Origin: Bacteroidales bacterium
Lineage (GTDB): Bacteria; Bacteroidota; Bacteroidia; Bacteroidales; PUMT01
Assembly: GCA_007132225.1 (NCBI GenBank)
Contig: SLPB01000181.1
Span: forward strand, 1 to 34,895
Reading direction: 5' to 3'
Length of the DNA: 34,895 nucleotides
In this document: one piece after another, positions 6,470 through 24,601 of the stretch
Layout: each line of letters starts with the position of its first letter
How positions within the stretch are numbered: position 1 is the stretch's first letter
The notes under the pieces: model-generated
Database searches by the model: none
Seen by the model: the letters and a program-made list of their open reading frames with translations, nothing else
Told to the model about the DNA's origin: nothing
Made by a program: the position numbers and the translations under genes

Positions 6470-8923
6470 ATGATCAAAGTACTGCTCTTCTTTGCGTTCA
6501 CCCTGGCAATTGCCGGCCCATTAAAAGCACAGGTATATTCTCAACTATACTCGGGGAAGCAGGAGATGTTTCTTGAAGCTGAATCTTATTATCTGTTTGA
6601 AGAATATAATGAGGCACTGCCCCTTTACCTGGAGATGCTTAAAGAACAGCCAGATAACGCATTTCTTAATTACAGGGCTGGCAGCTGCTACCTTAATATT
6701 CCCGGGGAAAAAAATCTTGCCATTGAATTTCTGAAAAAAGCCATAGAGGACATAGATAATCGTGATCGCCGGCCTACTTTCCGCACCAGAAAAGCACCTA
6801 TGGATGCACTTTTCAACCTGGGTTATGCCTACCATATTAATTACCAGTTTGAGAAAGCACTTGATATGTACAATGAGTTTAGAAATAATATCAATAACAC
6901 TGTATACAATATCGATATCGTAAATGAACATATAGAAGCAACTAAAAATGCCATAGAGAGTACAAAAAATCCTGTTTTTTTTCTGGAAGAAAACCTGGGG
7001 GAACGGATTAATACGAGGTTTTCAGAAACGAATCCTGTTGTTTCGGGTAATAAGAAAATACTTGTATTTACCCGCAGGCTGCCATTTTACGACGGAGTAT
7101 TCTTTTCTAAAAAAACCAGTGAAGGAGAATGGTCCTGGCCCATGGAGATAACTCCCCAAATAGTAAGTGAGGGAGACTGTTATCCTGTTTCACTTTCATA
7201 TGAGGGTGATGAGCTTTACCTGTATAAATCAGACAACCTGGTTGGTAATATATATGTAAGCCGTTTAATCGACGGACAATGGACTCCCATAAAAAAACTT
7301 AATGAAAACATTAACACAAACTACTGGGAATCCCATGCCAGCATATCAAAAGACGGAAACACACTCTATTTTACGAGCAATCGTCCGGGAGGCATCGGTG
7401 GACTGGATATTTATTATTCTAAAAGGAATAACTTGGGCGACTGGGGCCCCGCAGTGAATATGGGACCAAATATAAACACTCCCTATAATGAAGAGACTCC
7501 TTTCATTACAGAAGACGGAAGAACACTGTATTTCAGCTCATATGGGCACTACAACATAGGAGGCTATGATATTTTTTACTCATCACTTCTGGATAACGGG
7601 CAATGGTCAGTTCCGTTAAATGCAGGATATGGCATCAATACTCCGGATGACGACCTGTTTTTCAACCCTGTAAAAAACAGAACCTATGCATTTTTCTCAA
7701 AACATGATGAAGAGGGATTTGGGAACATGGATATATTCAGATACGAGTTCTTTTCTGACTCACATCCCCGCAAATTTCTTTTAAAAGGTGTAATGGAAAG
7801 AAAGGACGGATTGCAGACCTCGGCAAGGGCCAGGGTAAGCTTAATAGATCCGCTTTCAGGCGATAAAAAATATACTGTGACACCTGACCCAAAAACAGGT
7901 GAGTATGAGATAACAATAGAGGCTGGTGACTGGAAAGTATTATTCAGTGATGAGGGGCATGACGATATAATAAAATCTCTTGAGGTTCCCCTGGAAAGAC
8001 CTGATTCTGAAATAAAATCAGATGTGCTGATGGAGAGGACTGACCCGGTCATCCCGGGAATAGCAGAAGTTATAACCGATACGATAATTCTTCCCCGGGA
8101 AACATGGCCTGAAAAAACCCTCGGTATAGAAAAACATCAGCACCGGATACTGGAAGAAAAACATATCAAAATCCCTATGAGGCTTGAACCCGGAACCTTC
8201 CTGGAGGTCGAAAAATATCTTGATGGCGGACTGATTGGAACTGAAAACATAGATATTGAAAGAAGAAGATTTGTTTATGGCTATATACCTGAACCAGGTG
8301 AGAATCTGCTTAAGTTCAGATATACAGACCCCGAAGGTGAAATTATTGAAGAGCAAGTGGTTATTAGTTTCCATCCGCCCGTTTCAGAAGAGATGCTCAG
8401 TAAAGTCAAAAATGGTGAAAAGAGAGACTCATTAATAAAAATATTGCTTTATGCCGCTCCCGGCAGTATGCAAAATGCACTGGCAGAAATGGAGATTTCG
8501 CACCCCGGCATTGCATCACCTGAACATCTCGTGGAATATCTTCATACAAAACAGGCATTCAGGGATTATGATTCTATCTTTCACTCTGCACAGGAGTTTA
8601 TCGCTGCATTGATGCCGCATGTATCTGAAAATCTGGGGAAGTTCCTATCCGGCCTGATTAAAGAAGATAATGTTCCCGGATCAGTTAATGAATTGATATC
8701 CCTTATTATTGAGGGTAGCGACCAGTACGGCTATCTTAAATGGGAGATACTGGAGGTACTTCCAAAAATCACAACCACTGACACTACTCCTCCCGGCGAT
8801 GATCAGGAAGCTCCCGAAGATGGGTTGAACTTTTCTTTATGGTGGCTGATAATACTTGCTTTGCTTTTACTGACATTATTTTATTTTAAGGGGAAAATTA
8901 CCAAAAGAAAACATAAACATTAA
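6470..8923 (+). CDS. TPR/PD40 envelope protein with C-terminal membrane anchor
   Basis: An 817-residue exported protein. In order: signal peptide (1-20, cleavage after PLKA); TPR-like helices (30-165); a PD40/WD40-like propeller (about 190-430) with repeated SISKDGNTLYFTSNRPGG and EDGRTLYFSSYG blades; a carboxypeptidase-regulatory-like beta domain (about 435-520, GEYEITIEAGDWKVLF); an Ig-like strand region; a helical region (about 645-765); one membrane helix (about 789-807) and the basic tail KGKITKRKHKH. The N-out/C-in layout would anchor it in the inner membrane with the propeller in the periplasm. Its first 430 residues are clearly paralogous to the next gene, which ends in OmpA instead. 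The architecture resembles PorE-type envelope proteins without the OmpA part. Precise function unknown. Confidence 0.85.
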   Translation: MIKVLLFFAFTLAIAGPLKAQVYSQLYSGKQEMFLEAESYYLFEEYNEALPLYLEMLKEQPDNAFLNYRAGSCYLNIPGEKNLAIEFLKKAIEDIDNRDRRPTFRTRKAPMDALFNLGYAYHINYQFEKALDMYNEFRNNINNTVYNIDIVNEHIEATKNAIESTKNPVFFLEENLGERINTRFSETNPVVSGNKKILVFTRRLPFYDGVFFSKKTSEGEWSWPMEITPQIVSEGDCYPVSLSYEGDELYLYKSDNLVGNIYVSRLIDGQWTPIKKLNENINTNYWESHASISKDGNTLYFTSNRPGGIGGLDIYYSKRNNLGDWGPAVNMGPNINTPYNEETPFITEDGRTLYFSSYGHYNIGGYDIFYSSLLDNGQWSVPLNAGYGINTPDDDLFFNPVKNRTYAFFSKHDEEGFGNMDIFRYEFFSDSHPRKFLLKGVMERKDGLQTSARARVSLIDPLSGDKKYTVTPDPKTGEYEITIEAGDWKVLFSDEGHDDIIKSLEVPLERPDSEIKSDVLMERTDPVIPGIAEVITDTIILPRETWPEKTLGIEKHQHRILEEKHIKIPMRLEPGTFLEVEKYLDGGLIGTENIDIERRRFVYGYIPEPGENLLKFRYTDPEGEIIEEQVVISFHPPVSEEMLSKVKNGEKRDSLIKILLYAAPGSMQNALAEMEISHPGIASPEHLVEYLHTKQAFRDYDSIFHSAQEFIAALMPHVSENLGKFLSGLIKEDNVPGSVNELISLIIEGSDQYGYLKWEILEVLPKITTTDTTPPGDDQEAPEDGLNFSLWWLIILALLLLTLFYFKGKITKRKHKH

Positions 8924-8958
8924 CCTGTACAAGGTAATCTTTGCAAAAACCTGCCAAT

Positions 8959-11013
8959 ATGCGGCTTATTATATTCATAATTTCATTATCAATTTGCAAT
9001 GTATACACTCATGCTCAATGGCGCCAAAGTTCGCCTGATATTTTCGATGAAGCTTATGAATTCTACAGCTGGGGGGAATATGGGGAAGCACTGCCTCTTT
9101 TCACTCCTCTTTTAAGGGATCATGAGAATAATGACTATCTGCGGTATCTGGTAGCTGTATGCTATCTTAATATCGACGGACAGAGGCAGAGGGCATTGCC
9201 TTTTCTTGAACAGGCAACCCGGAACATCACTTTTGAGCATATACCAGGAAGTTTTAATGAGAAGTCGGCACCTTTGGAAAGTTTATATTATCTCGGACTG
9301 GCTTACAGGCTGGCCTACAGGTTTGATGAGTCGATTGAAAGCTTCCGCCGCCTGAAAAGCATGGCTGATAACAGGTATGATATGCAGCAGATTGAGAGAG
9401 AGATGGCTGTCACAAAAAACGCTGCTTTATTTTACAAAAACAGGGAAGATATCACTGAAGTCCCCATAAAGGCCTCTCCCGGTGTTGACCCTGCTCACAG
9501 TAACATAATTATAAGCGGAGATGAATCAACCATTGTTTATGTCGAACCTCAAAGATTCTATGACGCAGTATTCTTCTCCACAAATTCCGGCAGGGGGTGG
9601 TCAAAGCCTGTAAACATTACCACTCAACTGGGATCGGATGGACTTGCCTATCCGGTTTCTCTCTCCTTTGATGGCAAACAGCTCTACCTCTATCAATATG
9701 ACCGTCTTTCCAACACAAACCTTTACTTAAGCCAAAGAGTCAACAGCAGGTGGTCGGGCATGGAAAAACTAAGTGACAATATTAACTCAGAAGCTTTTGA
9801 ACAGCATGCCTCGTTGACAAAAGATGGAAATACGCTTTATTTTTCAAGTAACAGGCTTTCAGGAGAAGGAGGGTTTGATATTTACCATTCCCGGCTGGAT
9901 GAAAATAATGAATGGGGACCTGCTGAAAATCTGGGCTCCCTGATCAATACCCCGTTTGATGAATCATACCCTTTTATCAGTCCCGATGGCAAAACACTAT
10001 TTTTTAGTTCCAGGGGACACACGGGTATGGGGGGCTATGATATATTTGTGACACACAAAAAACCTGATGGTAACTGGACAACACCCCGAAACCTTGGCTA
10101 TCCCGTAAACACACCTGACGACGATACATTTTTCATCCCGGTCAAAGAAGGAACAACAGCTTATTTAAATTCACGTAAAGAGGAAAATAATGACCGCAGG
10201 AAGTTTAAGAAAATCAGCTCATTTGAGGTTGATTCTCTGCCCTTTTCCACTTTAGCTTTAAATGTATCGAAACAAGTGGATGTCAAAAAGCCGGATGCTG
10301 AAATATTTTTAAAAGTGCAGCAGATGAACCCCGGAAATACTAAAGAAGTCAGGCGAACGCTTATTCCCGGGGAAGATCATGAACTGGTACTTGAGTGGGG
10401 TGAATACAGTTTAGAGTTTTCTTCTGAAGGCAACATAACCAAATCTATTTCAGTCACAATACCCGAATATTATCCTGATAAAAAGTATTATGTAAATGCA
10501 AAACTCAACAAAATAACAGCCGGACAAACAGGGCTGGCAGTTAATGATACAGGTCAGGCAAAAAATAAGTCCGGATTACCTTTAAAGTCAGACAAAATTG
10601 TGGTAATGGAAATAGAGCCGGTTCTTTTTGGTTTCGACCGCCACGATCTTGATGACCGCGCCCTTGCAATAACTTCAGAAGTGGCCGGTTTGTTAAATGA
10701 ACATACTAAAGTAAACATTGAATTAAGGGGATACACCGATGCCCTGGGCCCTTCGGCCTACAATAAGCACCTTGCAGGGAAACGTGCAGAATCAGTAGCC
10801 GGTGCACTGGTCACTTACGGAATTAATAAAGACAGGATCAGTATTATTCCTGTGGGAATGAATAGTTACATAGCAAGGAACACTACCACTGATGGCCGGG
10901 ACAATCCTGAAGGAAGAAGATTTAACAGGAGGGTTGAACTTGTCTTTTCAAATTTACCGGTGCACATAGAATTTAAAAATATACTTTATATACCCGAAAA
11001 CCTTAAAAAATAG
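8959..11013 (+). CDS. TPR/PD40/OmpA-family peptidoglycan-binding envelope protein
   Basis: A 684-residue exported protein paralogous to its upstream neighbour. In order: signal peptide (MRLIIFIISLSICNVYTHAQ), TPR-like helices (20-150), PD40 propeller (about 170-400; SLTKDGNTLYFSSNRLSG, SPDGKTLFFSSRGHTGMGG), a small beta domain, then an OmpA C-terminal domain (about 550-664) with VLFGFDRHDLDDRA, ELRGYTDALGPSAYN and EGRRFNRRVELVF, which hold the aspartate and arginine used to grip peptidoglycan. It probably ties an outer-membrane or periplasmic complex to the cell wall. A TTG at 8941 lies upstream in frame, but ATG 8959 gives a clean signal peptide 35 bases after the previous stop. LSIC is only a poor lipobox, so lipidation is doubtful. 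PorE of type IX secretion has a similar plan; without other Por genes here I do not assign that role. Confidence 0.88.
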   Translation: MRLIIFIISLSICNVYTHAQWRQSSPDIFDEAYEFYSWGEYGEALPLFTPLLRDHENNDYLRYLVAVCYLNIDGQRQRALPFLEQATRNITFEHIPGSFNEKSAPLESLYYLGLAYRLAYRFDESIESFRRLKSMADNRYDMQQIEREMAVTKNAALFYKNREDITEVPIKASPGVDPAHSNIIISGDESTIVYVEPQRFYDAVFFSTNSGRGWSKPVNITTQLGSDGLAYPVSLSFDGKQLYLYQYDRLSNTNLYLSQRVNSRWSGMEKLSDNINSEAFEQHASLTKDGNTLYFSSNRLSGEGGFDIYHSRLDENNEWGPAENLGSLINTPFDESYPFISPDGKTLFFSSRGHTGMGGYDIFVTHKKPDGNWTTPRNLGYPVNTPDDDTFFIPVKEGTTAYLNSRKEENNDRRKFKKISSFEVDSLPFSTLALNVSKQVDVKKPDAEIFLKVQQMNPGNTKEVRRTLIPGEDHELVLEWGEYSLEFSSEGNITKSISVTIPEYYPDKKYYVNAKLNKITAGQTGLAVNDTGQAKNKSGLPLKSDKIVVMEIEPVLFGFDRHDLDDRALAITSEVAGLLNEHTKVNIELRGYTDALGPSAYNKHLAGKRAESVAGALVTYGINKDRISIIPVGMNSYIARNTTTDGRDNPEGRRFNRRVELVFSNLPVHIEFKNILYIPENLKK

Positions 11014-18362: not shown

Positions 18363-19763
18363 TTAGACGAATTTTCGCAATTTACTGAAATTTTTAAATG
18401 GCGGGTACTTGTATGGATTATCAATGTACGTGGGCGTTTTTAAAATCGAGCGTGTATTGCTGAAAGCAAGAAAGCTTTGTTTTCCGTGATATCGCCCCAT
18501 GCCGCTACTGCCTGTACCGCCAAAAGGCAGATAATGATTGGCTACGTGAAGGATTGTATCATTGATACATCCTCCCCCTGAGGTAGTTTTTTGTATTATA
18601 TTTTCAGTCCCCGCAGCCTTCCCGAAATAGTAAAAGGCAAGTGGCTTTTCATTGGCATTAACATAGCTTATCACTTCATCTATATCACTGAAAGTCATTA
18701 CCGGAAGCACAGGACCAAAGATTTCCTCCTGCATTATGGGGTAGTCAGGCCTTACCTCGTCAATAATGGTTGGAGCAATATACCTGTTTTCAATATCAAT
18801 ATCCCCTCCGAATATTATCTTACCATGTTGCATGAGTTTTTGAATACGGTTAACAGCCTTTTCATGAATGATCCTGGGGTAGTAATGACTCAGTTTTATA
18901 TCAGGTCCATACATGGCGTTAATTTGGTTTCCTATTCTGGAAACCAAATCATCTTTAACAGAATGGTGAACAAACAGGTAATCAGGGGATATGCAGGTCT
19001 GACCTGCATTTATAGTTTTGCCCCATGCAATACGTTTGGCAGCAATGTCAATGTCTGCATCTTTTTCAACAATGCACGGACTCTTGCCTCCCAATTCGAG
19101 CACAACAGGGGTGAGATTCTCTGCTGCAGCTTTCATCACAACCTGCCCCACCAGGGGACTGCCTGTAAAAAAGATAAAATCAAAATGCTGGGCAAGTAAA
19201 CTTTTATTCACTTCCCTTCCTCCCTGGGCTATTCCAACGTGGCCGGGGTTAAAAGTTTTCCTGACCATCTCTTCCATTACCATGGCGGTAGCGGGAGCAT
19301 GCGGTGAAGGCTTAAGAAATGCGCAGCAACCTGAAGAAATTGCACCAACCAGGGGATTCATAAGTAAATGAAAAGGGAAATTCCAGGGAGCAATGATAAG
19401 AGCCACGCCTAAGGGCTCATAGATAATCCTGCCGGATGAAGGCAATAAATGGAATGGTGTCCTTACTTTTTTGGGTATGGCCCATTTCTTTAGCTTGCCA
19501 ATATGGTGGTCTATTTCCTGGATCACAATACTGATTTCAGTGAGGTATGCTTCTTCGGCAGACTTGTGCAGGTCCGCGCGCAAAGCTTCCGTGATCTTAT
19601 CTTCATATTCAAGAATGGCAGATTTGAATTTTTTAAGTTCCCCAATCCTGAAATTTATATTCAGGGTTTGATGATCTGAATAGAAAGCTTTCAGCTCCTC
19701 CATGGTGCTGATAATCTTATTTACAGGGGTATTCTTCATTTTTGATTTTTTTAATGTGTTCAT
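18363..19763 (-). CDS. Aldehyde dehydrogenase, ALDH3-like
   Basis: Oxidises an aldehyde to the carboxylic acid with NAD(P)+. From ATG 19763 it is 466 residues, the short length typical of the ALDH3 class (fatty, aromatic and coniferyl aldehydes). Catalytic parts are present: IIAPWNFPFHLLMNPLVGAI, FFTGSPLVGQVV, general base Glu223 in VLELGGKSPC, nucleophile Cys257 in NAGQTCISPDY, and EEIFGPVLPVM; the C-terminus carries PFGGTGSSGMGRYHGKQSF. The frame is open to 19802, but the extra residues (MHNCCALMVRLLT) look unconserved; ATG 19739 is another option. Downstream of the SDR and fucU genes on the same strand and probably co-transcribed. Confidence 0.92.
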   Translation of the reverse strand: MNTLKKSKMKNTPVNKIISTMEELKAFYSDHQTLNINFRIGELKKFKSAILEYEDKITEALRADLHKSAEEAYLTEISIVIQEIDHHIGKLKKWAIPKKVRTPFHLLPSSGRIIYEPLGVALIIAPWNFPFHLLMNPLVGAISSGCCAFLKPSPHAPATAMVMEEMVRKTFNPGHVGIAQGGREVNKSLLAQHFDFIFFTGSPLVGQVVMKAAAENLTPVVLELGGKSPCIVEKDADIDIAAKRIAWGKTINAGQTCISPDYLFVHHSVKDDLVSRIGNQINAMYGPDIKLSHYYPRIIHEKAVNRIQKLMQHGKIIFGGDIDIENRYIAPTIIDEVRPDYPIMQEEIFGPVLPVMTFSDIDEVISYVNANEKPLAFYYFGKAAGTENIIQKTTSGGGCINDTILHVANHYLPFGGTGSSGMGRYHGKQSFLAFSNTRSILKTPTYIDNPYKYPPFKNFSKLRKFV

Positions 19764-19836
19764 TGTTAAAAGCCTCACCATTAATGCACAGCAATTATGC
19801 ATACCACCTTATTAATCCTTATTATCCCCTGCCAGA

Positions 19837-20643
19837 TCAGTCCTTATTATGCCCCACAAAATGATCCATAGTTTTATACATACCGAGCAAACCTCCAACA
19901 AACCAGTCAAAAAAGCGCACAGGCATCAATCCCTGGCTGAACCTGATGAATCGAAGGCTCCATGGCATGCTTACAATAATTCTGTTTCGCTCGATGCCCC
20001 TGATTATTTTCCGGGCAACTTTCTCAGGTTTCAAAGCAGGTATAAAAGACCTGACTCCTTTGAACATACCAGTTTCTATATAATAAGGAGTAACAGTTGT
20101 AACTCTTATATCCTTCCTTAACCGATTCATTTCAAGGCGAAGACTCTCAGACCAGCCAATCATGGCCCACTTGCTCGCCACGTAAACCGACATTTTTGGA
20201 TTGGACAATAATCCTGCCAGGGAAGAAATATTACATATATGCCCTGAATTACGTTTCATCATATCCGGCAAAAGTTCCCTGGTTATAAGCATCGGTGCAT
20301 TGATATTCACATCAATGGTCTTTAAAACATCCGGGATTTTATACTCATAAAAAAACCCCCCAAACACTATACCAGCATTATTTATAAGTATATCAACAAC
20401 ACCAACATTCCTTTTGACCCATTTTATGGCAATTTTTATATCATCATAAGAGGAAACATCTATCCTGTAACTGTAAACTCTCCCCAAAGAGGAGAGCTCC
20501 GAACGGGTTGCCTCTGTTTTTTCCCTGTCAATGTCCCATATAACGAGCACTGAACCCCGTTCCAATACCATTTGCCCCATAATTTTTCCAATTCCGGAAG
20601 CACCGCCTGTAATAAGTACTATTTTATTTTTAAAACCACTCAT
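19837..20643 (-). CDS. Short-chain dehydrogenase/reductase, SDR16C (retinol/17beta-HSD11)-like
   Basis: A 268-residue NAD(P)-dependent oxidoreductase. The cofactor loop TGGASGIGKIMGQ is at 12-24, an acidic residue in VIWDIDREK suggests NAD(H) preference, and NNAG, the catalytic serine in ICNISSLAG and the YVASKWA pair (Tyr and Lys) are all present. The region TTVTPYYIETGMFKG and the hydrophobic C-terminal extension (SLRFIRFSQGLMPVRFFDWF) resemble the SDR16C branch acting on lipid alcohols and aldehydes. It lies between fucU (46 bases upstream) and an ALDH3-like gene (73 bases downstream), consistent with an alcohol-aldehyde-acid route. Substrate is inference. Confidence 0.9.
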   Translation of the reverse strand: MSGFKNKIVLITGGASGIGKIMGQMVLERGSVLVIWDIDREKTEATRSELSSLGRVYSYRIDVSSYDDIKIAIKWVKRNVGVVDILINNAGIVFGGFFYEYKIPDVLKTIDVNINAPMLITRELLPDMMKRNSGHICNISSLAGLLSNPKMSVYVASKWAMIGWSESLRLEMNRLRKDIRVTTVTPYYIETGMFKGVRSFIPALKPEKVARKIIRGIERNRIIVSMPWSLRFIRFSQGLMPVRFFDWFVGGLLGMYKTMDHFVGHNKD

Positions 20644-20689
20644 GGTTGATCCGCTGGATTATTTGAAAACGCTAAACTAATTATTAAAA

Positions 20690-21121
20690 TTAAGCCGGGG
20701 TAACTCCTTTGACCAGGAGGATATTCCCATACTTTGCCGTTTCCCCGGTCATTACTACTGCAAAGGCCTCTTTTGCCCGTCTGTAGAATGAAAAACGCTC
20801 AATACGTTCAATTGAAGAAACCTGAGGATTTGTTTTGATTATACGCTCCATATAGGAGAGCTCAACTAAGGGGTCCAGCTGATCACCATCCACAGGAGCC
20901 ATCATAACAAGAGGCCGGGAAACATAGGTGTCAAGCTCAAACAGGGGCAATATAGCTTCAAGCAGATCAGGTATCCGCAAGCCATCGGCGCGGACAATAG
21001 TTTTATTGAGAGATTCTCCGGGAAAGTGGGCGTCGGCCAGCACAAGTTCGTCGCCATGCCCCATCCTGGACATTGTCTGGAGTAATAGCGGACTGATAAG
21101 TGGTGATATTCCTTTTAACAT
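20690..21121 (-). CDS. fucU: L-fucose mutarotase, RbsD/FucU family
   Basis: Interconverts alpha and beta anomers of L-fucose. The 143 residues align well from memory with E. coli FucU (140): [17 protein letters not shown], His22 in [21 protein letters not shown]-type [30 protein letters not shown] and the C-terminal [14 protein letters not shown] with the conserved tyrosine. The AKYGN and ADAHFP motifs favour the FucU branch over RbsD. No other fucose genes (isomerase, kinase, aldolase) are adjacent. First gene of an apparent fucU-SDR-ALDH operon. Confidence 0.93.
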
Positions 21122-21559: not shown

Positions 21560-24500
21560 ATGAAACCTATTAAAACAATCCTCATACTGCTAACTGTCAT
21601 ACTGATAAGCAATATTAGTCATGCCCAGCAATTTGGAAGAAACAAAGTCACCTATGATGCATTTAACTTCAGGGTTTTTGAAACCCCTAACTTCAGAATA
21701 CACCACTACCTGGAGGATGAAGAGGAACTAAAAAAATTCGCCCAGTTAACTGAAAGGTGGTATGAAAGACACCTGCCAATATTCCGGGATACCCTTGACA
21801 GGAAAATACCAATAATTCTTTACAACAACCACGCTGATTTTCAGCAGACCACAGTAATACAGCAGTTGATTGGTATTGGAACCGGGGGGGTTACCGAAGG
21901 CCTGCGGCAACGCGTGGTAATGCCCCTGTCTGCTTCCAGAAGAGATACGGATCATGTACTTGGCCATGAATTAACCCATGTGCATCATTTCAGGCTGTTT
22001 TTGGGAAACGGAGGACGCGGACTCGGGGGCAGGGCGATGGAAAATGTGCCCCTTTGGATGATCGAGGGGCAATCAGAATACATGTCCATCGGACGGGAGG
22101 ACGCCCATACAGCTATGTGGATGCGGGATGCTGTCAGGCATGACGATATCCCCACCATAAGAGACATGACCAGGCGTATGTACGAATACTTCCCCTACCG
22201 CTGGGGACATGCTTTCTGGGCATTTTATGGCGGAAATTTCGGCGATGACCAGATCATGCCCCTGTTTCTGGCAACAGCACAGATGGGTGTTGAAAGGGCG
22301 GTTGATACTTTAACAGGCTATTCGGCAGACTCTCTCTCGAAATTGTGGGCCAGCCAGCTGAGGGAAACATACCAGCCCCAGCTTGAAGGGAAACAGGAAT
22401 ATGTTGGAGAAAAACTCTTTGATCACACCAACGCAGGATACATGAATATCGCACCCGCTATAAGCCATGATGGTCAAAATATGGTGTTTATCTCAGATAA
22501 AAACGTAATTACAACCGATTTTTTCCTGGCAGATGTGCATGAAAAAGAGATTACCCGACGTATTACGAGAATTATCCGGGATGCTCGTATTGATGAATTT
22601 CATTTCATGGAGTCAGCGGGATCGTGGAATCCGGAGGGAACACAATTTGCCCTTACAGTATTCAGCGGGGGACGAAACAAAATATTGATTGCAGACCTGG
22701 ACAGAAGGAGAGTTGCAGAAAGGATCTCATTACCCGGGGTGCCCTCTTTTAATAACCCGGACTGGTCGCCTGACGGTGAAAAAATAGTGGTTGCAGGATT
22801 TAACCAGGGTCAGAGCAATCTGTATGTTTACAACCTGCAAACAGAAGAGGTTGAACAATTGACCGATGACAGGTATGTTGCACTGCAGCCTGCATGGTCG
22901 CCCGATGGATCAAAAATCGCGTTTATTACCGACAGGGAAGGCAATACGGATTTCCAGGAGCTCAGATTCGGAGATTACAGGTTAGCCGAGTATGATATAA
23001 ACAGCGGCAACATAAATGTTATTGATATTTTACCCGGTATTGACATTACTAATCCAAAATATTCACCTGACGGAACAGAGATATTTTTTGTTTCAGATGC
23101 AGACGGCTACAGAAATATTTACCGCTACAACAAAAATTCCGGGGAGGTCAGGAAAGTAACTGACCTTCAAACCGGCACCATGGGTATAACTTCATCGTCT
23201 CCCTGTTTTGATATTGCCAGGGGAAGTGAGGAGCTTGTTTATATTCTATATAAAAATGGCAATCATGAATTATTTAAAGAAAGTATTAAAAATCTCGACG
23301 GACCGGTGTTTACTGATGATGATATTGATAAGAGAGCTTCTATGCTGCCGCCGGTGGACATAGATCCTCCCACCGAGATAGTGGAGGAAAAGCTTGAAAG
23401 ATATCCCAGTACCGACCCGGAAAAATTCAGTCGAAAAGACTATGATCCGCGATTCACCCTGGAAGCCATAGGAGGTGCAGGTATTGGTGTGGGGGTCAGC
23501 CAGTTTGGTGCCGGTGCAGCAGGAGGGGTCAGTTTCATGTTCAGTGATCTGTTAAGGGAAAATATATTAACCACCTCTCTTCAGGTGCAGGGCAGAATAC
23601 AGGATATTGCCGGGCAGGCAGTATATATGAACCAAAGCAGGCGTATTAACTGGGGAGGTGTATTTTCCCATATTCCCTACAGATCTGCACGCGCGCAAAT
23701 GAGGCTGGACACTATTAACGGCACGTTAGTTGAAAACCTGGTTATGCTGGAACAACGGATATTTGAAAACGAACTCGGGGCTTTCGGTCAGTATCCTTTA
23801 TCAACAAACCTTCGTTTTGAGGGAGGTTTTAGTGCAAGCAGGTATGGTTTCAGGGTAGACAGCATCAACAACTATTTTGTAGGAAACATGCTTATTGACA
23901 GGGAAGAACATGAACTTGAAGCTCCGGATGCTTTCTTTATGTACAGAACATACCTGGCTTATGTAGGAGATAATGCCCGGTTCGGATTAACAGGCCCCAT
24001 GAGAGGCAGCCGCTACCGGTTCCAGGTTGACCGGTCCTTTGGCGAATACCAGTTCTGGGGACTCATGGGAGACTACCGCAGGTATCGTCATATTCCCCCT
24101 GTTGCTCTGGCATTCCGTACTATGCACTTTGGCCGGTATGGGGCTGATGCAGATCAGCTGCAACCGGTTTTTGTGGGAAATCCCTATTTTGTAAGGGGTT
24201 ATAGTTTCAGGGCTATCACACAGCCCGGAGAAACTTCAGACCAGTTCATAAGCATCAACAATCTGCTGGGAAGTAAAATTGCAGTGGTAAATGCAGAACT
24301 ACGTTTTCCGTTCACCGGTCCCCCGGAGTTTGCAGTGATAGAATCCCGGATGTTTTTCAGTGACCTGGTTCTTTTTGCTGACGGGGGACTGGCTTGGCAT
24401 GATTTTGATGATATAGAAATGAGGTGGCGGCCGGTAAGGGATGAGGAGATACGTATCCCGGTTTTCAGTACCGGTGTGGCATTACGTGTAAACCTGTTTG

Positions 24501-24601
24501 GAGCGATCATCCTGGAGCCATATTTCGCGCTGCCTTTTCAGCGTCGGGCCGACAGGACCACGGGTACTTTCGGATTTCATCTCTCATTTGGGGGATTCTG
24601 A
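21560..24601 (+). CDS. Metallopeptidase-like / PD40 propeller / outer-membrane beta-barrel fusion protein
   Basis: A 1013-residue exported protein with three parts. A signal peptide (1-22, cleavage after SHA) is followed by a zinc-metallopeptidase-like domain: HEXXH at His136-Glu137-His140 in GHELTHVHHF, with the gluzincin third ligand Glu169 in PLWMIEGQSEYMS. Residues about 290-590 form a TolB/PD40 propeller (FNNPDWSPDGEKIVVAG, LQPAWSPDGSKIAFITDREG, NPKYSPDGTEIFFVSDADG). From about 640 it is a beta-barrel of the BamA/D15 kind: glycine-rich and aromatic alternating strands, FVRGYSFRAI, and a terminal FGFHLSFGGF ending in Phe as outer-membrane insertion signals do. It likely sits in the outer membrane with periplasmic propeller and peptidase domains. 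Function unknown; all metal-binding residues are present. Monocistronic. Confidence 0.85.
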   Translation: MKPIKTILILLTVILISNISHAQQFGRNKVTYDAFNFRVFETPNFRIHHYLEDEEELKKFAQLTERWYERHLPIFRDTLDRKIPIILYNNHADFQQTTVIQQLIGIGTGGVTEGLRQRVVMPLSASRRDTDHVLGHELTHVHHFRLFLGNGGRGLGGRAMENVPLWMIEGQSEYMSIGREDAHTAMWMRDAVRHDDIPTIRDMTRRMYEYFPYRWGHAFWAFYGGNFGDDQIMPLFLATAQMGVERAVDTLTGYSADSLSKLWASQLRETYQPQLEGKQEYVGEKLFDHTNAGYMNIAPAISHDGQNMVFISDKNVITTDFFLADVHEKEITRRITRIIRDARIDEFHFMESAGSWNPEGTQFALTVFSGGRNKILIADLDRRRVAERISLPGVPSFNNPDWSPDGEKIVVAGFNQGQSNLYVYNLQTEEVEQLTDDRYVALQPAWSPDGSKIAFITDREGNTDFQELRFGDYRLAEYDINSGNINVIDILPGIDITNPKYSPDGTEIFFVSDADGYRNIYRYNKNSGEVRKVTDLQTGTMGITSSSPCFDIARGSEELVYILYKNGNHELFKESIKNLDGPVFTDDDIDKRASMLPPVDIDPPTEIVEEKLERYPSTDPEKFSRKDYDPRFTLEAIGGAGIGVGVSQFGAGAAGGVSFMFSDLLRENILTTSLQVQGRIQDIAGQAVYMNQSRRINWGGVFSHIPYRSARAQMRLDTINGTLVENLVMLEQRIFENELGAFGQYPLSTNLRFEGGFSASRYGFRVDSINNYFVGNMLIDREEHELEAPDAFFMYRTYLAYVGDNARFGLTGPMRGSRYRFQVDRSFGEYQFWGLMGDYRRYRHIPPVALAFRTMHFGRYGADADQLQPVFVGNPYFVRGYSFRAITQPGETSDQFISINNLLGSKIAVVNAELRFPFTGPPEFAVIESRMFFSDLVLFADGGLAWHDFDDIEMRWRPVRDEEIRIPVFSTGVALRVNLFGAIILEPYFALPFQRRADRTTGTFGFHLSFGGF

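Follow-up and report, generated by a model that had tools for sequence, protein, structure and literature searches.

Omp85 proteins and their described relatives

Omp85 proteins build the outer membranes of bacteria, mitochondria and chloroplasts, and those that act as assembly factors usually possess POTRA domains. In Escherichia coli, the M48 gluzincin peptidase BepA resides at the outer-membrane assembly site, where it edits clients at the BAM complex; it is a separate protein with TPRs and is not fused to a barrel.

In the searched text of Heinz and Lithgow 2014 (PMC4104836), Omp85 subfamilies without POTRA count as accepted members of the superfamily. One of these, named 'WD40-Omp85', consists of a propeller closest to TolB followed by an Omp85 barrel, with no POTRA named, and is likened to a BamA-BamB fusion. 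The same text mentions neither a HEXXH domain before the propeller nor a link to tamB for this group; no word in it begins with 'peptidase', and 'metalloprotease' appears 5 times, for a group with a PF00149 domain. The latter, the 'Metallo' subfamily, also places an N-terminal metal-enzyme domain on an Omp85 barrel and is discussed with the same idea of periplasmic quality control (PMC4104836, text searched). Its PF00149 domain is not a HEXXH peptidase. In the patatin-Omp85 protein PlpD, according to the parts of PMC11116518 consulted, a patatin-like enzyme domain lies N-terminal to the barrel and remains in the periplasm, with a POTRA present and no propeller described.

The window, the whole 34,895-nucleotide stretch of Bacteroidales DNA analysed here, encodes a protein in which a metallopeptidase domain precedes a propeller and a barrel, and whose family is very likely the same as the WD40-Omp85 subfamily, as far as the searched text of PMC4104836 describes it. 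The original prediction knew of no named system with this order of parts; the propeller-Omp85 portion was in fact named in 2014, whereas mention of HEXXH for that subfamily was not found in the text searched. In the wider literature searched, in part by title and the start of the abstract, neither a description of this domain combination nor an experimental study of peptidase-propeller-Omp85 fusions was found.

Domain organisation of the window protein

The gene and its features are as follows:

21560–24601, + strand: whole open reading frame, a gluzincin-propeller-Omp85 fusion of 1013 amino acids with an ATG start
21560–21625, + strand: probable Sec signal peptide, residues 1–22, read from the sequence
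21665–22399, + strand: metallopeptidase domain, residues 36–280, from structure prediction and fold match
21965–21979, + strand: HELTH zinc motif, residues 136–140, from sequence and conservation
22064–22081, + strand: EGQSEY, residues 169–174, with Glu169 the likely third zinc ligand
22190–22207, + strand: FPYRWG, residues 211–216, with Tyr213 the likely catalytic tyrosine
22400–23299, + strand: TolB-like β-propeller, residues 281–580, from profile and fold match
23300–23455, + strand: linker, residues 581–632, from the predicted structure
23456–24598, + strand: Omp85-type barrel, residues 633–1013, from profile and fold match
24191–24202, + strand: VRGY, residues 878–881, Omp85 loop-6 motif, from sequence
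24371–24388, + strand: LFADGG, residues 938–943, Omp85 FxDxG motif, from sequence

The full-chain AlphaFold2 model (pLDDT 84.7, pTM 0.78) contains both the metallopeptidase fold and the barrel, at residues 633–1013, on which the original prediction had staked its reading. The signal-peptide region is modelled with low confidence as a helix at residues 2–15.

The peptidase domain

Modelled alone, the peptidase domain (pLDDT 86.2, pTM 0.84) is predicted to have the gluzincin catalytic fold. The top match of the model is an M9 collagenase (Z 16.5, 3.4 Å, 233 residues aligned), and matches extend over M9 (Z 13.1–16.5), M30 (Z 14.7–15.3) and M1 (Z 11.5–12.7) enzymes; the lowest Foldseek E value is 4.4e-05. 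These enzymes share the fold and zinc-ligand spacing with the window protein, but are not known to carry an outer-membrane barrel and are 9–16% identical to it in the fold alignments. Profile scores stay below the cut-offs: PF13485 (Peptidase_MA_2, cut-off 32.4) scores 21.1 bits on the whole chain and 25.1 on the domain alone, although the clade-B relatives L127, L134 and L144, the three scanned, reach 52.7–57.7 bits, and the M9 collagenase family PF01752 (cut-off 26) scores 18.2 bits on the domain alone. Among the sequences of solved structures, one peptidase-domain profile (A3) gave 0 matches and another (A2) just 2 weak ones, at E of about 0.07.

The window protein has the HEXXH and downstream Glu that define gluzincins (clan MA), at the positions originally claimed (His136, Glu137, His140 and Glu169). 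His136, Glu137, His140 and Glu169 are kept in all 113 clade-A and all 17 clade-B alignment rows, and Glu173 is likewise conserved in both clades. Tyr213 is invariant across clades A and B and occurs in none of 8 clade-C sequences; its distance from Glu169 equals that in ColG between Glu555 and Tyr599, the catalytic tyrosine of that enzyme. Conservation and fold are stronger evidence for the motif than shuffle statistics, in which any HEXXH appears in 3.3% and HEXXH-x28-E in 0.16% of 5000 residue shuffles of the window protein, and together they rule out a chance HEXXH. The earlier gluzincin reading thus gains both a predicted fold and ligands conserved in the window's clade.

The propeller and the Omp85 barrel

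The propeller that had been called TolB-like is recovered both as PD40 repeats (E 5.8e-21 in the Pfam scan) and as a TolB fold (Z 26.2, 2.7 Å, 252 residues aligned over 280–567), TolB being the nearest propeller by sequence and by fold alike. Membership in TolB of the Tol-Pal system is ruled out, since the chain scores 166.5 bits against the TIGR02800 equivalog cut-off of 343.15.

The barrel belongs to the Omp85 type. The Pfam model PF01103 (Omp85) scores 27.6 bits on the whole window chain, above its cut-off of 24, and 30.6 bits on residues 631–1013 alone, whilst the model of residues 633–1013 matches BamA of D. radiodurans (8xnb_A; Z 24.6, 4.0 Å, 315 residues) and, at Z of about 21–22, Sam50 and TamA. 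After residue 632 the model has 17 strand segments of at least 7 residues, which is not an exact count of barrel strands; a BamA-type barrel has about 16. VRGY conforms to the (V/I)RG(F/Y) pattern of Omp85 loop 6, and the chain ends in aromatic residues (...FHLSFGGF), as the original prediction had stated for its C-terminal barrel. The protein shares barrel fold and motifs with BamA, TamA and TamL, but has a peptidase and a propeller in place of POTRAs and a signal peptide that is, by sequence, type I without a lipobox. No POTRA family matched at E ≤ 0.1 in the Pfam scan of the chain, and residues 36–632 are occupied in the predicted structure by peptidase, propeller and linker. PF00149, the metallophosphoesterase family, has no match at E ≤ 0.1 in the window chain, ruling out membership in the 'Metallo' subfamily.

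In relatives, PF01103 reaches E ≤ 0.01 in one of nine scanned (L144) and misses the 45% paralogue in the same genome. A barrel profile built on clade A matches 17/17 clade-B and 8/8 tier-D chains at E ≤ 1e-3 and none of 45 shuffled chains; it misses 4/13 clade-C, 3/3 tier-E and 3/3 tier-F chains at that threshold, so that the tier-E and tier-F barrels lack profile confirmation. RG[FYW] occurs after residue 600 in 99/114 clade-A, 11/17 clade-B, 6/8 clade-C and 16/19 lower-tier chains, some of which are incomplete at an end; L200, whose frame was taken from the wrong strand, is excluded from the full-length RG[FYW] and barrel-profile counts.

Distribution in Bacteroidota and joint loss of catalytic residues

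Fused proteins of similar build are common in Bacteroidota: the peptidase-domain profile matches 193 of 296 genomes and 122 of the 140 genera sampled. HEXXH is kept in 112 of the 120 genes read, among 122 listed for 47 genomes and including two from the window's own genome (L155, a propeller-only match, is excluded from clade counts), and the motif is therefore not routinely lost among homologues, a result that would have told against the original prediction. Tyr213 is kept in 111 of the 120 overall, in 109/110 fetched HEXXH genes and in 0/8 genes without HEXXH. The two features are lost jointly, in two lineages, as two losses on the tree. This tracking of HEXXH by Tyr213 is the pattern expected from selection for catalysis, whilst some lineages keep the chain after losing the zinc ligands, so that part of its role, at least, can do without catalysis.

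The earlier alternative of a pseudo-peptidase finds no support in the window gene, for which that status is ruled out by intact zinc ligands and Tyr213, and describes instead a separate minority (8/120).

Gene neighbourhood

On either side of the window gene, the nearest gene lies on the opposite strand: the upstream one resembles L-fucose mutarotase genes, and the downstream one those for class A penicillin-binding proteins. Across 80 compared regions of the window's clade, with flanks of varying length (L046, on a 4-kb contig, is excluded), every neighbouring gene family is limited to at most 9; a dedicated operon is thus ruled out. The window contains no tamB, so the gene does not stand in an operon with it as expected of an outer-membrane subunit of the TAM (TamA/TamL); a tamB-like ORF is found in 1/79 clade-A loci (L060, about 3.6 kb away), and the tamB genes of the window's own genome are on contigs C10 and C30.

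Relatives of the gene adjoin tamB or bamB-like genes, which adds to the resemblance to BamA, TamA and TamL. The same-strand order tamB-rnr-gene occurs in 14/28 clade-B loci (in 9/20 when only loci obtained later than the source loci of the neighbour models are counted), and neither tamB nor rnr is found in 12/28 (one, L345, with only 1.5 kb upstream); in tier D, the order gene-bamB-like-PEGA occurs in 6/6 loci. Clade B and tier D each had neighbour models derived from 5 source loci, which were scored too, and the tier-E and tier-F sets are small (1 and 3 loci). Pfam identifies the neighbours as TamB (60.6 and 51.5 bits) and PQQ_2/BamB (161.5 and 194.4 bits), and the neighbour proteins fall below the NCBIfam TamB and BamB equivalog cut-offs. 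This linkage had escaped the first reading of the DNA.

Possible roles of the fusion protein

The observations are best accommodated, with a slight leaning in its favour, by an Omp85 assembly or quality-control factor with a built-in, periplasm-facing and probably active metallopeptidase. The protein would be exported by Sec as an outer-membrane member of the Omp85 superfamily in which the POTRAs give way to a TolB-like propeller and a zinc endopeptidase that is M9/M1-like and faces the periplasm. The propeller may dock a client (an unfolded barrel protein, a lipoprotein or an exported protein) under the barrel mouth, where the zinc site could trim or destroy stalled clients, as BepA, likewise a gluzincin peptidase but without a barrel of its own, does at the BAM complex. 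The outer-membrane protease or quality-control device originally proposed remains plausible, although the Omp85 identity of its barrel had been missed. The Omp85 barrel, the gluzincin fold, the conserved zinc ligands and tyrosine and the tamB and bamB-like neighbours of relatives speak for this role, and the periplasmic enzyme domain of another Omp85 protein, PlpD, for the topology (PMC11116518, parts consulted). Against it stand the lack of conserved neighbours in the window's clade and of a POTRA, the missed PF13485 cut-off, the limited reach of PF01103 and of the clade-A barrel profile in relatives, the zinc-ligand-free lineages, the 12/28 clade-B loci without tamB or rnr, and the neighbours' scores below the NCBIfam equivalog cut-offs. 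With no conserved neighbours in the window's clade, the connection to tamB and bamB-like genes comes from relatives at most about 30% identical, whose role the window's clade may share.

An unlikely alternative role is that of a TolB or BamB substitute, in which the propeller would do the work, as a platform where partners (Pal-like or from BAM) dock, and the peptidase domain would chiefly provide structure. The proximity of the propeller to TolB, the minority that keeps the chain after losing the zinc ligands and the BamA-BamB fusion comparison of Heinz and Lithgow 2014 (PMC4104836, text searched) fit this role, but the TolB equivalog score falls well short, and the retention of HEXXH in 112/120 and Tyr213 in 111/120 genes is hard to account for without catalysis. 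It is slightly less probable that the barrel exports its own peptidase and propeller in a type V-like manner, so that extracellular protein is degraded or processed at the surface. The order of passenger then barrel does resemble that of autotransporters, and collagenases, which are secreted enzymes, are the nearest peptidase folds; however, the domains N-terminal to Omp85 barrels lie in the periplasm, and even the model protein for self-export by an Omp85, PlpD, was found to keep its enzyme domain there (PMC11116518, parts consulted). Nor is surface export needed to explain the tamB and bamB-like linkage seen in relatives. That linkage, in the form of the tamB-rnr-gene order in half of the clade-B loci, together with discussion of TamB as a potential phospholipid conduit in the parts of PMC11014939 consulted, could instead point to transport of lipid in place of protein, with the window protein terminating a TamB-type bridge at the outer membrane and its peptidase as a regulator. 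This is very unlikely: tamB is not a conserved neighbour in the window's clade, and TamL, the known TamB partner of Bacteroidota, is judged an unlikely lipid transporter in the parts of PMC12045153 consulted.

Extended beyond this gene, the preferred assembly or quality-control role would make the family a protease-coupled assembly module in much of Bacteroidota, a doubtful generalisation in which a POTRA-less Omp85 barrel, a docking propeller and a zinc peptidase, with TamB-like or BamB-like partners, would decide between insertion and destruction of a client in one chain, surviving as a catalytically dead scaffold in two lineages. In many Bacteroidota, the family is a candidate for the partner of tamB in the outer membrane. 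If the generalisation is true, insertion and proteolytic quality control would be joined in one molecule.

Domain architecture of the window gene product

The window gene encodes a single chain with three predicted parts, whose limits are taken from a full-chain AlphaFold2 model:

21560..24601, + strand: window gene ORF, 1013 residues
Residues ~36-280: peptidase domain (AlphaFold2 model)
Residues ~281-580: propeller (AlphaFold2 model), followed by a linker
From residue 633: barrel (AlphaFold2 model)
Residues 878-881: VRGY in the barrel, the Omp85 loop-6 motif
Residues 938-943: LFADGG in the barrel, the Omp85 FxDxG motif

Pfam detects PD40 repeats (E 5.8e-21), an Omp85 superfamily barrel at residues 793-1009 (27.6 bits, cut-off 24) and a below-threshold Peptidase_MA_2 match at residues 81-267 (21.1 vs 32.4 bits); the nearest solved structures by sequence are TolB propellers. 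The full-chain model, calculated from a 72-row alignment (A1), has a pLDDT of 84.7 and a pTM of 0.78. Re-alignment of Foldseek matches places the predicted propeller on TolB 2ojh (Z 26.2, 2.7 Å, 252 residues aligned) and the predicted barrel on D. radiodurans BamA (Z 24.6, 4.0 Å, 315 residues aligned), with Z of ~21-22 against Sam50, F. johnsoniae BamA and TamA. The peptidase domain modelled alone (pLDDT 86.2, pTM 0.84) resembles M9 collagenases (Z 13.1-16.5), M30 lugdulysin (Z 14.7-15.3) and M1 aminopeptidases (Z 11.5-12.7); it is mostly helical, and for such folds a Z below ~13 may, as the tool warns, reflect merely a common arrangement. Its Foldseek E-values are modest (best 4.4e-05), and the fold match gains strength because the HEXXH and Glu spacing agree with it.

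The domain order of the original prediction is borne out for this chain: its residue numbers are exact (HELTH at 136-140, EGQSEY at 169-174), the propeller has PD40 repeats and a fold placed on TolB, the C-terminal barrel exceeds the Pfam Omp85 cut-off and is placed on Omp85 proteins, and the full-chain structure prediction it proposed contains both peptidase domain and barrel.

Conservation and loss of the zinc site

Related genes in Bacteroidota form clades A (the window's own), B and C, with ~35-89%, ~24-32% and ~20-23% identity to the window protein respectively, and tiers D, E and F. Relatives were confirmed by tblastn in genome contigs, the best 80 of 128 being retained; with loci from own-genome and phylum searches these make 111 ORFs, the window's included, all of which carry HEXXH. 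H136, E137, H140, E169 and E173 are invariant in a joint alignment of clades A (113/113 rows) and B (17/17 rows). They are not invariant in clade C, where HEXXH is intact in none of 8 rows within the first 320 residues.

An even survey of 47 genomes, from 46 families with a listed match, was searched with a peptidase-domain profile (A2) and returned 124 rows representing 122 genes, two rows being second pieces of one gene each. The survey pieces are mostly ~1.1-1.4 kb, and the survey therefore informs on the peptidase domain rather than on the full-length protein. Of these genes 120 were read, 118 from DNA (2 of 120 loci being duplicates) plus the window genome's two; those on G001 contig 1 and G290 contig 65 stand outside the count. 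Of the genes read, 112 have HEXXH and 8 lack it, so its loss among homologues is not routine; in 12 of the 112, clipped by the profile alignment, the motif was read directly. Residue 213 is Tyr in 97/98 aligned survey genes with HEXXH (the window genome's two lie outside this count), in all 12 clipped genes and in 0/8 genes without HEXXH. Tyr599 of collagenase G is a catalytic residue. The 44 residues from Glu169 to Tyr213 in the window chain equal the Glu555-Tyr599 spacing of collagenase G, as numbered in the accessible part of PMC9574867.

Loss of the motif was mapped on a tree of 137 peptidase domains, built by a quick maximum-likelihood method with ligand columns removed; it has long branches at loci L272, L273 and L304. 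The 14 rows lacking HEXXH can be explained by a minimum of 2 changes, a value as low in 0/500 shuffles, and the starred branches force 2. The first loss is a single lineage of 12 rows, all in the window's class, and the second a separate pair (L147, L148). The dead copy is the only copy at E <= 1e-8 in 7/8 surveyed genomes that have one. Loci L193-L196, L205, L149-L154 and L257, a Bacteroidota lineage, keep a peptidase-like domain and a long chain, with HEXXH and Tyr213 gone.

Architecture and distribution of relatives

PF01103 at E <= 0.01 matched one of nine relatives scanned (L144) and gave no match to the window genome's own 45% paralogue. A clade-A barrel profile (E <= 1e-3, for 4000 sequences) matched 113/114 clade-A chains, the miss (L051) ending before the barrel, 17/17 clade-B chains, 8/8 tier-D chains and 9/13 clade-C chains, some of them incomplete and all four misses in family f4; it matched 0/45 shuffled chains. 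The chains of clades A and B, of tier D and of most of clade C therefore support the three-part order, which the original prediction had suggested seeking across Bacteroidota. No tier-E (0/3) or tier-F (0/3) chain matched at this threshold, and a barrel is favoured there only by an RG[FYW] motif in part of the chains and open frames of ~970-1300 codons.

Phylum-wide, the peptidase-domain profile matches 193/296 genomes and 122/140 genera (E <= 1e-5) and the full-length query 178/296 genomes (E <= 1e-20); the profile finds nothing in 103/296, among them both listed genomes of the window's own order. Outside the window's class, genomes often hold several copies, sorted into recognisable tiers: tier D has ~940-1005 codons and the motif HELVH, and motifs read in tiers E/F include HEFTH, HELTH, HELGH and HEYTH. 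One clade-B open frame (L137, genome G003) spans 1530 aa, its 5' end extended by ~450 codons relative to the usual start.

Genomic neighbourhood and proposed role

In clade B, tamB, rnr and then the gene follow on one strand in 14/28 loci (L306, L307, L309, L311, L312, L327, L328, L333-L335, L338-L340, L344). The neighbour models were built from 5 of the 28, and 9/20 loci added afterwards show the same order. L331 has rnr, beyond which the contig ends, L332 has a divergent tamB without rnr, and 12/28 loci have neither, L345 among them with just 1.5 kb upstream. In this order the RNase R gene sits between two envelope genes. In tier D (L314-L319), the gene is followed in 6/6 loci by two others, one encoding a BamB-like propeller protein and one a protein with a PEGA domain; 5 of these loci were used for the model. 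Neither arrangement occurs in the one tier-E, two clade-C and three tier-F loci compared. Scores exceed cut-offs for the tamB (Pfam TamB, 60.6 and 51.5 vs 22.4 bits), BamB-like (PQQ_2/BamB, 161.5 and 194.4 vs 27.6), PEGA (50.1 vs 20.8) and rnr (RNase R, 753.6 vs 597.85) neighbours; the TamB and BamB neighbours fall below NCBIfam equivalog cut-offs.

Omp85 barrels function in assembly or translocation, and the domains N-terminal to them lie in the periplasm. The putative zinc peptidase and a docking propeller would be positioned in the periplasm at the barrel mouth. This placement, together with the tamB or bamB-like neighbours of relatives, fits an assembly factor that carries a quality-control protease, with putative activity, topology and clients; the closest functional picture is BepA, a separate protease of E. 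coli. We infer the same role for the window's unlinked clade from the linked clades. The enzyme domain of PlpD, long believed exported, proved periplasmic, according to the accessible part of PMC11116518.

Relation to known Omp85 subfamilies

PF00149 is a metallophosphoesterase family, and the published name 'Omp85-metalloprotease' may for this reason mislead. In the accessible text of Heinz and Lithgow 2014 (PMC4104836), the subfamily so named, also 'Metallo', is based on PF00149; the same text names a WD40-Omp85 subfamily, in which the propeller is TolB-like, and likens it to a BamA-BamB fusion; no word in it begins with 'peptidase'. The original prediction knew of no named system with this order of parts; the propeller-Omp85 portion was already named in 2014. 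No report of its HEXXH domain, nor of a tamB link, was found among the papers listed in searches of the open-licence literature. The available text of the 2015 TAM paper (PMC4494059) describes operons of tamB with BamA, TamA and TamL, with no word beginning 'WD40', 'RNase', 'ribonuclease' or 'peptidase'. The accessible portions of two 2025 Bacteroidota BAM papers (PMC12611786, PMC12578637) contain no 'peptidase', 'TolB' or 'WD40', the latter describing BamI as an extracellular propeller subunit, and those of PMC11116518 call Omp85 subfamilies that bear metalloprotease or WD40-like domains not well characterised.

The window and its own genome

The window gene stands alone, with the genes either side on the opposite strand, and no neighbour family occurs in more than 9 of 79 clade-A loci plus the window (flank length varies). 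The window gene's 45% paralogue follows a BamA-like gene (107.1 bits to Omp85), lying ~6 kb downstream of it. At this locus (L355, contig C161 of the window's genome, 3779-16222), the paralogue is downstream, on the same strand, of uppS, BamA, two Skp-like genes, murI and then a 2-oxoacid oxidoreductase-like pair, names read by eye except for the Omp85 match. The genome's two tamB genes are on contigs other than the window's, one adjoining another Omp85 gene that is TamL-like by position.

Within the window, 6470-11013 (+) encodes a PD40 protein of 817 aa and then a TPR-PD40-OmpA protein of 690 aa; the latter has the domain order of the type 9 secretion protein PorE. Upstream of the window gene, L-fucose mutarotase-like, short-chain dehydrogenase and aldehyde dehydrogenase genes at 18363-21121 (-) suggest a fucose-type catabolic cluster.
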